Source of the DNA: Dermacentor variabilis
Lineage: Eukaryota; Arthropoda; Arachnida; Ixodida; Ixodidae
Assembly (NCBI RefSeq): GCF_050947875.1
Contig: NC_134572.1
Location: 118,024,709 to 118,088,708 of the forward strand
Direction: 5' to 3'
Length of the DNA stretch: 64,000 bases
Under the pieces are notes generated by a model. That model was not told the DNA's origin and made no database searches. It worked only from the letters and a program-made list of their open reading frames with translations. A program made the translations under genes and the position numbers. This document shows, in pieces, positions 600 through 30,900 of the stretch (its first letter is position 1; each line of letters starts with the position of its first letter).

Positions 600-903
600 T
601 CAGTCCTCTTCAGCGGGGTCAAGGGCACAGACAACGGCCTTCATGAAGGCGGCTGCAGCGAGTGCAGCACATGGCTGCCACTCGCGGCCCTTGCTGCCAT
701 CCTTGTAGTCGGCGATACCACGGATGAAGGCATAGTGGTCCTTGCGGTTGCCAAAGATGGACTCGACGACAGTGTCGAAGCCGGTGTCGAACGCTCGCAC
801 ACCGTACTCCTCAGCCAGTGCGTGCCGTCGGCTGTCATCCCGCACCACGCTGCCCAGACCCGAGGCCACGCTGCCAAAGTGCACCACTGGCCGCCCGGGA
901 AGC
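600..903 (-). CDS. Exon 13 (C-terminal exon, stop at 600-602)
   Basis: The acceptor is tttctgccgcag|G. It encodes PVVHFGSVASG, a segment ending YGVRAFDTGFDTVVESIFGN and AFIRGIADYKDG, then the C-terminal helix EWQPCAALAAAAFMKAVV. The IAD aligns with the catalytic Asp motif (SD) of MTA/SAH nucleosidases. AFDTGFD stands where that family usually has the ribose-binding MExE. Stop TGA is at 602-600. Confidence 0.9.
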
Positions 904-3900
904 CTGCGGCAGAAAGGCATTGCGTATCCCTCAAGTTAATGCACTGAGGCAGTTCATAACATAGGCAGCTTGCAACTGAAGCAGTCGTATATCATTATGC
1001 ACTTTCCGGAATAAAAAAAAAGTAGTAAGTGTGCATTCATTCTGTTGTCTTCTTTGTCTCCATATATTAAATTTTTTTTTTCGTGCTTGTTTCTTTTCCT
1101 ATTCACGAGCATGTGCCAATTTGTCCAACAGCTTGCTCTGTTAAAAAGAAATTACAGCAGAACTCATTTCGCGATGACTGTCGAGGCTAATATGAATAAC
1201 ATTTGATGGATGTAGCGACAGATCATATTCCTCATGCGACGTTTATTTAACGTGTGTAACAGTAATTTTTAGAGTTTTGTTGTTTCGGTTATGTGCCACA
1301 TATTCCGATATCCTACTACTTTGCTATGGCACTTGCTTGCCAAGGTCGCCCATCAGCATGAAGGCGAGATGATCACTGTATAATGCTGATGCATTAACGA
1401 TGAAATGGCAAAGGAATTATATTAATCGAATGACAAAGGCATATAACAATAATTGCATGACAACAATGAGATGTAGATTCCTAAATTATAGCGCTGGAAT
1501 AATGACAACAACATGACAAAAACATGATAGCAATGAGATGACAACTGCATGACAATGTTGGTATGAAGACAGCTCAATGAAAGAGCAGGAATGATGGTGA
1601 TGACACAAGTAAGACAATATGATAACAACGGCATGATAAAGGACGCACAACAGTGAACAGTGACTACGGTGAAATTACAGAGATGGCATAAAAATTGCAA
1701 AATAATCACAATTGAATAACAGCATGATTACAATAGAATGACAAACTGGGATTACAATACTGAAGTGATGACGAGGGTGAAATGACAGCGGGACAGTGAT
1801 TACATGACAATGGCATGACGAGAGTTGGATGTCAAAGTCACAATGATGATTATGACAGACTGCAACAGCACCCTGATGACGGTAAGACAACGAAGGCATG
1901 ACAACGATGGCATGACAACAGCACGAGGACAATGGGACGACGACGAATGTATGATCACAACGGAATGACGATGACTGTATCACGAAACCTGTACGACGAC
2001 AATGGTATGATGAGAATCGGATGACAAAGCTGGAGTGACACTGATAGTACGACCACGACGGTAGGACAAAACCAGATGAAAAAGTGGGAATGATGACAAT
2101 GATATGACCAAGCCAGCATGACGATGACAGTACGACAATGGCAGCATTATTATGAGTGAATGACAATCACATGATTACAATAGAGTTATAAGCAAGAAAT
2201 GACGTCGATGAATCCACGAAAGTGGTATGATAATGACGGCATGATGACAATGGGATGACAATACTGAAGTGATGATGACAGTGAAATGATAGCGTGATGA
2301 CAATGGCACGACAACAATGGTATGATGACAACAGCATGATGAGAGTCTGATGTTAAAGTTACAATATGATGATGTAACGACCATGACGGGATCCTGATGA
2401 TAGTATGACAATGAATGCATGACGACGACTGTGTGACGACGATGCATTGACGATGACTATATGACAACAATACATTGACGACGTTGGCATGACAACGAGT
2501 GTATGATTACAAGGGAATGACGATACTGTATCACAAAACCTGTCTGATGATGATGGCATGACGAGACTCGGATGACATAGCTGGAGTGACAATGATGGAA
2601 AGACCATGGTGGTATGACAAAACCGGATGAAGCGGGAATGACAACGATGGTACAACCAAGATGTTATGACATGGGATGCATGATATTGTCTATGTGACGA
2701 TGATGTAATGACAATGGCAGCATAATCATGATTGAATTACAACAGCATGATTACAATAGAATTACAAACAAGTAATGACGTCAATGGATCAAAGGTGGTT
2801 TGACAACAATGGCATGATGATACTGAAGTGATGACGACAGTTAAATGACAATTTGATGGCTATAGCATGATGAGAAATTATGACGACAGCATAAGTTACA
2901 ATTTACAATGATTATGATGAAACTACCGGGATGAGATCCCGACAGTGGTATGACAACGAATACATGACAATGATGCAGTGATAACAATGGCATGACAACG
3001 GCACAAGGACAATGGGATGACGGCAAGTGTATAGTGACAATGGCATGACGATGACTACCATGAAACCTGTATAGCAACAATGGCATGACTACAACTGCAT
3101 CTTGAGAGTCGGTTGACAAAGCTGCAATGATGATGATGGCACGATTGCGATGGCATTACAAGTCTGGCAATGGAAACATAATAGCAACTGTCTGACGATG
3201 ATGACATGACAAGGGTGGCATAATCGCAATTGAATGATGACAGTATGATTACAATGAAATGACAAAGAAAGATTGATGTCGATGGAACAACAAAGGTAGG
3301 TGGTATGACGATGGTGGCATGAAAATTGAATGACATTACTGAAATGATGACAGTGATAAAACCTGTGTGACGACTATCGCTTAACGAATGCATGACGACT
3401 ATGGCGCGATGACAACAGCATGATCAGAGTCAGATGACAAAGCTTGAATGACGACAATGTAAAGGCCACGACAGAATACCGGCCCTTAACACATACCAAG
3501 TAGCTTAAGGTATTAGGCAACTTGGACTACTGGGCCAGGGTCGAAGTAGTGATGACAGCAGGACAACAGGAAGATCACAAAGCTGGAATGACAACCACTG
3601 AACAACCTCAATGGCATTACTATGGCTGTGCAACAGCGAATTCATGACGACTGTATGACGATGATGGCGTGACGAGTGTCGGATGAAAAAGCTAGAATGA
3701 CGACAACGCAATGATCACGATGCCATCATGACTATGAGCCCATACCTTGTGGCCCTAGGTATAAAACATGGGCCATTAGGTCAGGCTAGAAGATGTTACA
3801 ATGACGACATGACCAGAGTAAGATATCACGAAGAAAGAATTACAACAATGGAACAACCACGATGGTATCACGGCAAGGAGCACATACCTAGTGGCTCAAG

Positions 3901-27900: not shown

Positions 27901-30900
27901 ACCAATAATCCTGGTATGCTACCTGAACGTGTCAAACCTGCCAGAGTCAAGACCCTCGCTATGCAAGGAATGGGTTCAGTGGGTTCGTCTCCCACCAGGG
28001 ACAAGTTGGTTTTCATCCACATTTATTTCTCATTACTTTATTTACTACAAATAATTTCCACTATGCTTTTCTTGGCTTCATATGGTCGTCACTAACAAAA
28101 ATCGGGCCCCTATGTTCCCCTTCTCGTTCAAAAGATCAGGAAGGTTATTGTTGTTACAGTTCATTGAAATGTAATGCCCAACGGCCTATTAAAGAAACTG
28201 TGAACTATTGGTCTAAAATCAAACACACTTCGCTTGACAATGAAAAAAAAAAGCACTAGTGTCTTAATTTCCGTGCAGTATACAGAAAAGCTGCTGTGAG
28301 GTTGTCCTCATTCTTTAGGAGCACAGATTATTGAAAAGCGTTTTGTATACTTGACATTGTAGGCTGCTTAAAAAAGCTTTGCTGCCTGGTACGTGCACGC
28401 TAACTTTTCAAGAAGGATAGTTTGTACTCGCCGCAGACAACGGCGTATGTGCACAGACGCTCTGCACGGAGAAAGCTTTCGGTCTCCCTTTTGCCCCCAT
28501 GCGTTGTGCTCGACCACCACGCGTCTTAACTATGGGGAAAAGCCAACCGGACCCAACGTACGTGAGTCTGTATAGGCGGATTTCCCCACACACTTCGGAC
28601 GCAAAGCGGTGCATCGCGATGCAACGGCGGCGCAGCAGCTAGGGCGTGCCGTGCTTGGGGAGTTTGCGGCGCGTTCCAGCGGGTAAACAGGATTAAACTG
28701 CGTCACAATTGTTATCTCCACGGTTAGCACCGATCTCTCAGTCACTCATGATAACCAAGCCTAACCACAGAAGACGCGTCGTACGACGACGCGAGTCTCC
28801 ACTACTCGATAACACTAACATCACCCAACAAGTTTACAACGACTTCCTATCAGGTTCGTTTCATATAGCCTCCATTTTTGAGTCACGCTGCACCGTCGGA
28901 CCCCGAGTTACGCACGCACCATACGTTTCCTGCGCTTCCTTTTATGTAATTCCTTTCCTTGAACACGTTATAACGCCGAATAATATGTACCGAAACTAAC
29001 TGCGCAACTTGCAATGGTTCTTTTAGTGCAAGCAAATCCAAATGATCAGTGGCCTGGTCGAGTGGTACCAGAGTGCGCAACTTGCAATGGTTATTTTCGT
29101 GCAAGCAAATCCAAATGATTAGTGGCCTGGACGAGTGGTACCGCATCTCGCCCTTCGATGCTTCGATCTCAGCTCTCAGAGATATATTGCACGTGCGTCC
29201 GCTCGAGCGCTATACATAACGCACGAAAAATAAAATAAGATATATTACAAGAAAAGATAGAAGAAAACGAGAAGCAAAACAAGCGGGAACGAGCGCGTAT
29301 ATATGTGTACCCCTGCTGGCGAGCCGGTTGATGACGATGCCCCGGTGGTCTCCGCCGGCCTCGTGCATGACGTTGCCCTTGTCGAGCGCCTGCCGAGCCA
29401 CCCGTTCCATCTTGATGGTCGTCTGGCCCTCCGCCTTCCTGCGGGGGGTCATCACGATGTGCTCCTCTGCGCAAACAGTGCAAACACGCGAAGGATGAAC
29501 GTGTCAGTTCGCTTTGTCACCTCCGGAACGGCGCATATATGTCTCGCGCGTTTGTCATCTACACTGCAGCCGGCCATGACTCTATGTACTACGTATATAC
29601 GCCACGTAGCACACTCTGCTGGTGCTCGCTAAAGTATGGGAACAGTGCGCGCAGACCACAAAAAGAAACGCGCACTTCGATCGCTGAACCTGCGGCTGAA
29701 CGCATCTCGGAAAACGGACGTATCCTGCTGCGCATTCGGGAAGGTTCTAAACGGACGGCTATATAGACGGTGGTGTTTATTCGCTGCTGATGGAATAAGG
29801 TACGTGCTCGTCTTCAGGGGAAGAATACTATCATCGTGCGGCACAGCGTACAGATCTAGCAATGACAGCTTTAAGGAAATATATATTCGGCGAGTTCATT
29901 TGCTATCCCTTCAGAAGCTATAGCGGTGGCACTCCATTTGAACTTCGCGGGCTCTGCCTGATCGAGTGCGAGGAAGCTTTAGCTCGGGAGCTTCTATCTA
30001 AGTACGCGGCAAAGGAGAAATCGCGCTTTTCTCGGCAACCACCGCACCAAATTTGATTAGGTTTGTTGTAATTAAAGGAAAAAAGTTAAAATCTAGTGAC
30101 TGTTGGTAGCGAATTTTCGATTTATACCGTCAATGCTTTAATAAATACTGTTAAATATCGAAACTGTTTAGAAGACGGAACTATAAGGTTTACAACTCTG
30201 TAACTCAGCAATGAAAAACGATATGACAATTATGTAAAGAGCATTTATTATTACATCTACAAATCCGACAAAATTTATGCATCACACATGCCTGTAAAAT
30301 TTATTGCGGATATGTGATTATGACTTTTGTAGAACCCTTGTAGACAATGTAGAAAATCCACGTACGACATAATCTGACGTACCAAACGTGTCTGCTTTGA
30401 ATGCTCTAACGGATGCAGTTTACAGAACTGCGATATCTGTTCTAAACGCAGAGCTACGAATTTGTAAAGTTCTTCAGATTGTGGTTTTGGCACGTAAAAC
30501 CCCATATTTTTTTTGTAACCTTCGTGTTCCGATATTTTTCAAGCTTAACAATATTCGAAAATCCCTTTGTAAAAATTTAGGCACTAAATCGAAATTGCGC
30601 TTGCATCAGTCACTATAACTGAACTTTTGCAAACGCAACACATTTCGTTAAAATCGGCCCAGTGGTTATCTCACAAAAGCGTTTCTGCGTTTTACGTGTA
30701 CTTGAATAGGCGGCATCAGAGCTGGGCCCGAGCTAAAGCTTCATCTTTAAAGGGACTCTAAAGCGAAACAATAAATCAGTTTAGACTAATAAAGCACTGT
30801 TTGAGAACTCTGCAGGCAGTCATTTCAAAATGATAGTTTGATTATTAGACGATGAAATGAAGGTCGAAGTATCAGTATTTTAAATTCGCGCCGAAACCAC

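Follow-up and report, generated by a model that had tools for sequence, protein, structure and literature searches.

The 64,000-nucleotide stretch of Dermacentor variabilis contig NC_134572.1 analysed here (positions 118,024,709 to 118,088,708, hereafter the window) holds twelve of the thirteen coding exons of LOC142583103, a gene whose product joins an N-terminal alpha/beta domain, a winged helix and a C-terminal domain with the predicted fold of 5′-methylthioadenosine/S-adenosylhomocysteine (MTA/SAH) nucleosidases. The joining of the exons, the division of the product into three parts, its predicted fold, the aligned catalytic Glu and Asp, and the occurrence of the family across the protostomes were computed directly. 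In regard to function, we tentatively favour a conserved, regulated purine nucleosidase belonging to the immune-effector subgroup, predicted to have become in ticks probably a weakened enzyme or a ligand sensor. To us the protein looks less like a transcription factor than like a nucleosidase or a sensor derived from one. A first, sequence-only reading of this DNA had put the protein forward as the best candidate for an undescribed system, and in the literature searched no functional paper on the family was found.

Gene structure at the tick locus

Residues 8-642 of the reference protein P0001 (LOC142583103, "uncharacterized protein isoform X1", 642 amino acids, aa) were placed by tblastn on 12 exons, all on the minus strand, between window positions 600 and 29467 (Table 1). 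Joined by script from 29466 to 600, these exons form one frame of 635 aa that is identical to residues 8-642 of P0001, precisely as the sequence-only reading had chained them. All 12 acceptors are AG, while the donors are GT in 10 of 11 cases and GC in the remaining one, after exon 7. The start exon (MENSNVE, 7 aa) is absent from the window and was found as a 13th coding exon on the same contig (C5:118106864-118106884, minus strand), 18 kb beyond the window and with a matching phase-1 donor, bringing the coding gene to about 82 kb. Exon 5, 117 bp long with symmetric phases (1-1), forms an in-frame cassette whose omission leaves 596 aa without an internal stop. Adding the 7 aa of the start exon gives 603 aa, as in the tick-like proteins P0002 and P0003. 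As P0002 (98% identity) stems from contigs no longer than 7275 bases, while the window exons cover 29 kb, it was presumably obtained from spliced RNA. The start exon, the cassette and the Glu-to-Gly change discussed below go beyond what had been read from the sequence. All 12 matches to the tick protein in the tick genome at E ≤ 0.001 lie at this one locus.

It is very improbable that the gene is an artefact of prediction software joining two adjacent genes. One submitter did split the Hyalomma asiaticum gene into HPB50_021073 and HPB50_021074, but single proteins of the same length class and with the HTH_69 label occur across phyla, the three parts align end to end in 50 family rows, the junctions are exact and in frame, and the 603-aa protein comes from contigs much shorter than the gene.

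Spread of the family

A 401-aa piece of the tick protein, assembled ahead of any look-up, found 1100 relatives among 7999 scored candidates at E ≤ 1e-3 (best 6.1e-272), which excludes chance. Among the 120 matches listed, all were arthropods as far as named, including ticks, mites, spiders, scorpions, a pseudoscorpion, horseshoe crabs, a sea spider, crustaceans, a centipede, hymenopterans and a planthopper. Querying with the N-terminal half (the second search) gave 83 of 407 candidates at E ≤ 10, with Lingula, a brachiopod, alongside Drosophila and Culex. The third search used a chimera and took its scores from the Lingula segment; 886 of 2198 candidates passed the same threshold, and the 120 matches listed add molluscs, annelids, a nemertean, a bryozoan and a priapulid. 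The family is protostome-wide, ancient and slowly evolving, with the tick and mussel proteins sharing 43% identity across 630 aligned positions, and the arthropod peculiarity that had been assumed does not hold. The commonest labels of the listed relatives are "uncharacterized", "hypothetical", "winged helix-turn-helix domain-containing" and "nucleoside phosphorylase".

In regard to a prokaryotic source of the whole protein, two pattern scans of genome contigs yielded 139 and 50 stretches and a scan of viral contigs 13, none of them confirmed; since the patterns were family-specific, this null result excludes only close relatives.

Several individual sequences deserve mention. P0098 of Sarcoptes scabiei, labelled "COP9 signalosome complex subunit 5-like", aligns as a full family member and is probably mislabelled. 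A tandem repeat of the stretch GESNVYTLGN..GDVV occurs in P0296 (Anopheles stephensi) and P0033 (Nilaparvata lugens), due either to wrongly joined duplicated exons or to mutually exclusive exons. Isoform numbers of Octopus sinensis reach X48, and P0238 has, in the linker that holds the cassette in the tick, a long insert that is acidic and rich in proline.

The predicted C-terminal nucleosidase fold

The AlphaFold model of the tick protein, built with 41 relatives (mean predicted local distance difference test score, pLDDT, 80.6), comprises four segments: the N-terminal domain, roughly residues 9-157; a linker of low confidence, which includes the cassette; the winged helix at 219-284; and the C-terminal fold at 298-635. 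In structure comparison, residues 297-636 match MTA/SAH nucleosidases (MTAN), bearing out the domain assignment made from the sequence, and the predicted model has the PF01048 fold. The corresponding Pfam profile, PNP_UDP_1, matches 25 of the 50 family rows at E ≤ 1 (best 3.4e-9, 36.9 bits against a cut-off of 25.1). A profile search of the tick protein reached MTAN at E 0.054, phmmer of P0001 against the PDB gave no match at E ≤ 1, and hhalign matched the domain to a single E. coli MTAN over no more than 38 columns, close to the C-terminal end and at a low probability (3.7), the global run producing nothing sensible.

Active-site residues were followed in 196 relatives (the proteins of 540-690 aa out of 300, minus one with a duplicated segment). 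The equivalent of E. coli MTAN Glu12, E307, is present in 194 and that of Asp197, D607, in all 196; the tick protein has both. Position 583, corresponding to the ribose-binding Glu174, is Glu in 166 relatives, Gly in 25, Asp in 2, Gln in 2 and Ala in 1, so most keep an acid there, while ticks and spiders have Gly. The aligned residues indicate that E583 was lost at least twice, independently in ticks and in spiders, and the tick form appears the likeliest to be catalytically weak. A literature search on the MTAN residues returned no paper.

In most protostomes, the C-terminal domain would release the base from a purine nucleoside or nucleotide by hydrolysing the N-glycosidic bond. E307 would activate the water for this, D607 would protonate the base and E583 would hold the ribose, while the N-terminal domain and the winged helix may gate this activity or relay a ligand signal. 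In ticks and spiders, the domain with Gly583 would probably still bind its ligand, catalyse little or differently, and act as a sensor.

The whole family might instead consist of ligand-sensing pseudoenzymes: a purine metabolite would bind in the pocket but not be turned over, and a partner would be controlled by way of the winged helix. The family-wide change of the ribose motif, the repeated loss of E583, the acidic winged helix described below and the slow evolution are all consistent with this. Pseudoenzymes, however, usually lose catalytic residues such as E307 and D607, and the near-complete retention of both makes this explanation unlikely, if still worth keeping in mind.

Bacterial relatives

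The PADLOC "PN-superfamily" effector model matches 39 of the 50 family rows, and PDC-M60C 46 of 50 (E ≤ 1). A tblastn search of plasmids with the Limulus domain returned 17 records, of which only two from Sinorhizobium were significant (3e-8), the other 15 (11 Borreliella, two Leptolyngbya, two Klebsiella) having E 0.3-0.4. Four of these 17 records were opened. One Klebsiella gene is the third of a three-gene set, following a 157-aa receiver-like protein; we take this set to be Detocs, in part from the glossary of PMC11249213. The Leptolyngbya plasmid protein (L009 3702-6599) has 965 aa and two tandem purine nucleoside phosphorylase (PNP) domains, with a DYADSSKNDEW block only in the second, and looks from its sequence like a nucleotide-binding leucine-rich-repeat (NLR) protein. 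A follow-up search from the Sinorhizobium piece gave 23 records. The six opened were a phosphorylase and a SAVED protein, each adjoining a cyclase of the cyclic-oligonucleotide-based anti-phage signalling system (CBASS), two Detocs-like sets, a protein labelled "HNH endonuclease" and a cyanobacterial phosphorylase.

The domain tree contained 10 family rows, 9 bacterial PNP domains, 2 MTAN, DeoD and Udp. A Calothrix 541-aa protein close to the Nostoc row and a broken Sinorhizobium numidicum gene were left out, and the "defence" label of Calo_PNP2 and Lept_PNPa comes only from neighbours and our own reading. The best tree joins the family with the defence-type bacterial domains, with a support of 96/92 from few rows and long branches, and an approximately unbiased (AU) test does not reject a grouping with MTAN (p 0.22). 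A grouping of the family with PNP domains of bacterial defence systems has moderate support and would sharpen the earlier remark that such nucleosidase domains often serve as effectors. The PADLOC, plasmid and follow-up searches point to defence-type domains, while NCBIfam and structure matches point equally to MTAN.

With the bacterial PNP effectors that have been described as ATP nucleosidases, namely SAVED-PNP of CBASS and response regulator-PNP of Detocs, the family shares the nucleosidase domain, the aligned Glu12/Asp197 pair, a D[YF].D..K..aromatic block and, in the best tree, one supported branch. On the other hand, it lacks SAVED, receiver and STAND (signal transduction ATPase with numerous domains) parts, has an N-terminal domain, a winged helix and a long insertion that are its own, and shows mostly D-x-E/G-F-D in the ribose motif, against x-M-E in the CBASS and Detocs rows. 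E. coli Mtn and its MTA/SAH nucleosidase relatives stand outside the joint branch, although the AU test (p 0.22) does not reject a grouping with MTAN; they lack the K...W..YA block, while the tick protein lacks Glu174. Fungal PNP_UDP proteins have an NLR architecture, unlike the tick family, and presumably resemble it in the RGICDYADSHKNK motif.

Published passages link PNP_UDP domains of fungal NLRs to ATP nucleosidases (PMC10197012; such domains also in PMC12258605, PMC12881547), tie PNP to (d)ATP degradation in CBASS, Detocs, prokaryotic Argonaute (pAgo), DRT8 and NLR-like systems (PMC10952713), and report PNP-STING fusions in fungi (PMC12424679), PNPase as a possible part of metazoan NCOA6 TRADD-N clade proteins (PMC8195603) and PNPase in bacterial conflict systems (PMC7159879); two more cite the field only (PMC12409349, PMC13144350).

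The protein could also be a cell-autonomous immune effector in which infection frees the nucleosidase and (d)ATP is destroyed, by analogy to bacterial Detocs and CBASS, and the location of the opened bacterial relatives in CBASS and Detocs-like loci fits such a role. We nevertheless consider it improbable. Immune effectors usually diversify, while the tick has a single locus and the tick and mussel proteins are 43% identical; in addition, Pfam gave no repeat or STAND match, and the ribose Glu is lost in ticks and spiders. As to a role in immunity more generally, kinship with defence-type domains fits it, while one locus and slow change favour a housekeeping regulator.

N-terminal domain and winged helix

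The N-terminal region, unrecognised in the sequence-only reading, stayed so. Folded separately from 34 short proteins of the second search it reached pLDDT 83.9, and no convincing match to it was found. No other architecture with this domain was seen in the 19 of 83 second-search sequences read, the candidates being length-limited. In two Drosophila species, P0169 and P0175 consist of the N-terminal domain alone followed by a common alternative tail, suggesting a stand-alone isoform.

The tick winged helix is a member of Pfam HTH_69 (PF22979; residues 211-274, E 5e-14, 52.4 bits against a cut-off of 27), a name that covers the winged helix alone and states no function. HTH_69 is matched in all 50 family rows and in none of 14 control genomes above the cut-off, Methanocaldococcus jannaschii scoring below it. 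A scan of the tick genome also gave no HTH_69 match, probably because an intron splits the domain.

A metabolite-responsive transcription factor binding DNA through this helix could be proposed from the HTH_69 match and from weak matches to archaeal and bacterial winged helix-turn-helix (wHTH) regulators (the profile search of the tick protein reached a wHTH region at E 0.0032). However, winged helices are also common protein-protein modules, and in the 196 relatives, by a weak measure taken without a control set, the net charge has a median of -4 (range -8 to 0) over residues 217-284 and of -1 (range -6 to 1) over the recognition-helix stretch 246-260. A transcription factor is quite unlikely, and an acidic surface for protein contact or dimerisation is more likely than a DNA reader. 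Of the DNA-binding wing proposed earlier, the winged helix stands while DNA binding is doubtful.

Weighing the favoured reading

Against a regulated nucleosidase close to immune effectors stand a number of observations. PNP_UDP_1 finds no match in P0001 at E ≤ 1; NCBIfam gives none for the tick protein either, and in PADLOC it matches only PN-superfamily, at E 0.012, and not PDC-M60C. The NCBIfam MTAN model matches 27 of 50 family rows with a best E of 1.9e-10, equal to the defence models, and the 11 Borreliella genes among the 17 plasmid records are annotated as MTAN. In the tree, long branches meet, the bacterial rows are few and picked from plasmid hits rather than sampled, and the AU result cited above does not reject grouping with MTAN. 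Concerning the active site, residues were mapped onto MTAN by sequence alignment, not on a superposed active site, the ribose-motif Met is replaced family-wide (Thr or Ser in 138/196), and the tick has Cys for the Tyr of its relatives in the WQPY block. The roles given to the N-terminal domain and the winged helix are purely inferred.

A bolder form of the regulated nucleosidase, which we regard as doubtful, would be an undescribed protostome-wide nucleotide-cleaving switch, derived from bacterial ATP-nucleosidase effectors and tamed by the N-terminal domain and the winged helix, whose ribose grip ticks and spiders would have independently disabled to make a sensor.

Other features of the locus

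The two reverse transcriptase fragments (RVT_1 in Pfam; Table 1) are retroelement remains within introns of the gene, and two further window stretches tested showed no RVT_1. The window contains 200 N, those noticed lying within an intron and representing an assembly gap or a masked stretch. Further PNP-like matches in the tick genome fall in five places on C1 and C10, and the one on C1 is, judging from its translation, presumably an ordinary animal purine nucleoside phosphorylase.

Table 1. Coding exons and other features in the window (window coordinates; codon positions by arithmetic)
Feature	Position	Strand	Remarks
Exon 1 in window (gene's second)	29311..29466	-	N-terminal domain start, residues 8-59; AG acceptor, GT donor
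Exon 2	27166..27248	-	N-terminal domain
Exon 3	26390..26501	-	N-terminal domain
Exon 4	24295..24414	-	N-terminal domain end (to about residue 164)
Exon 5	23422..23538	-	117-bp cassette, low-confidence linker in model; missing from 603-aa P0002, P0003
Exon 6	15413..15524	-	Winged helix, first half (residues about 204-240)
Exon 7	13510..13625	-	Winged helix, second half; GC donor
Exon 8	12633..12776	-	Nucleosidase fold start; E307 codon 12694-12696 (aligns with E. coli MTAN Glu12)
Exon 9	11986..12111	-	Nucleosidase fold
Exon 10	9195..9489	-	Nucleosidase fold; motifs GVGGGVP, HVRLGD
Exon 11	8452..8673	-	Holds most of the long insertion that the family has and MTAN has not
Last exon and stop	600..903	-	Codons G583 780-782 (aligns with MTAN Glu174), D607 708-710 (Asp197)
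RVT_1 fragment	18156-18707	-	E 8.3e-24
RVT_1 fragment	5976-6209	+	E 5.9e-8
N stretch	about 6690-6900		
Short tandem array, 73 bases	29001-29142		
Short tandem array, 51 bases	40234-40405		

Significance

A seemingly unstudied protein has been kept in invertebrates as different as oysters, bees and ticks, and its enzyme part resembles bacterial antiviral effectors that destroy ATP. Among the Drosophila sequences found there were N-terminal parts only; relatives in fly, mosquito and bee make the function testable. The parallel Glu-to-Gly changes in ticks and spiders represent a natural experiment on enzyme versus sensor. If nucleotide cleavage proves true, the family would act as a switch, metabolic or immune, in species that serve as models, pollinators and vectors.

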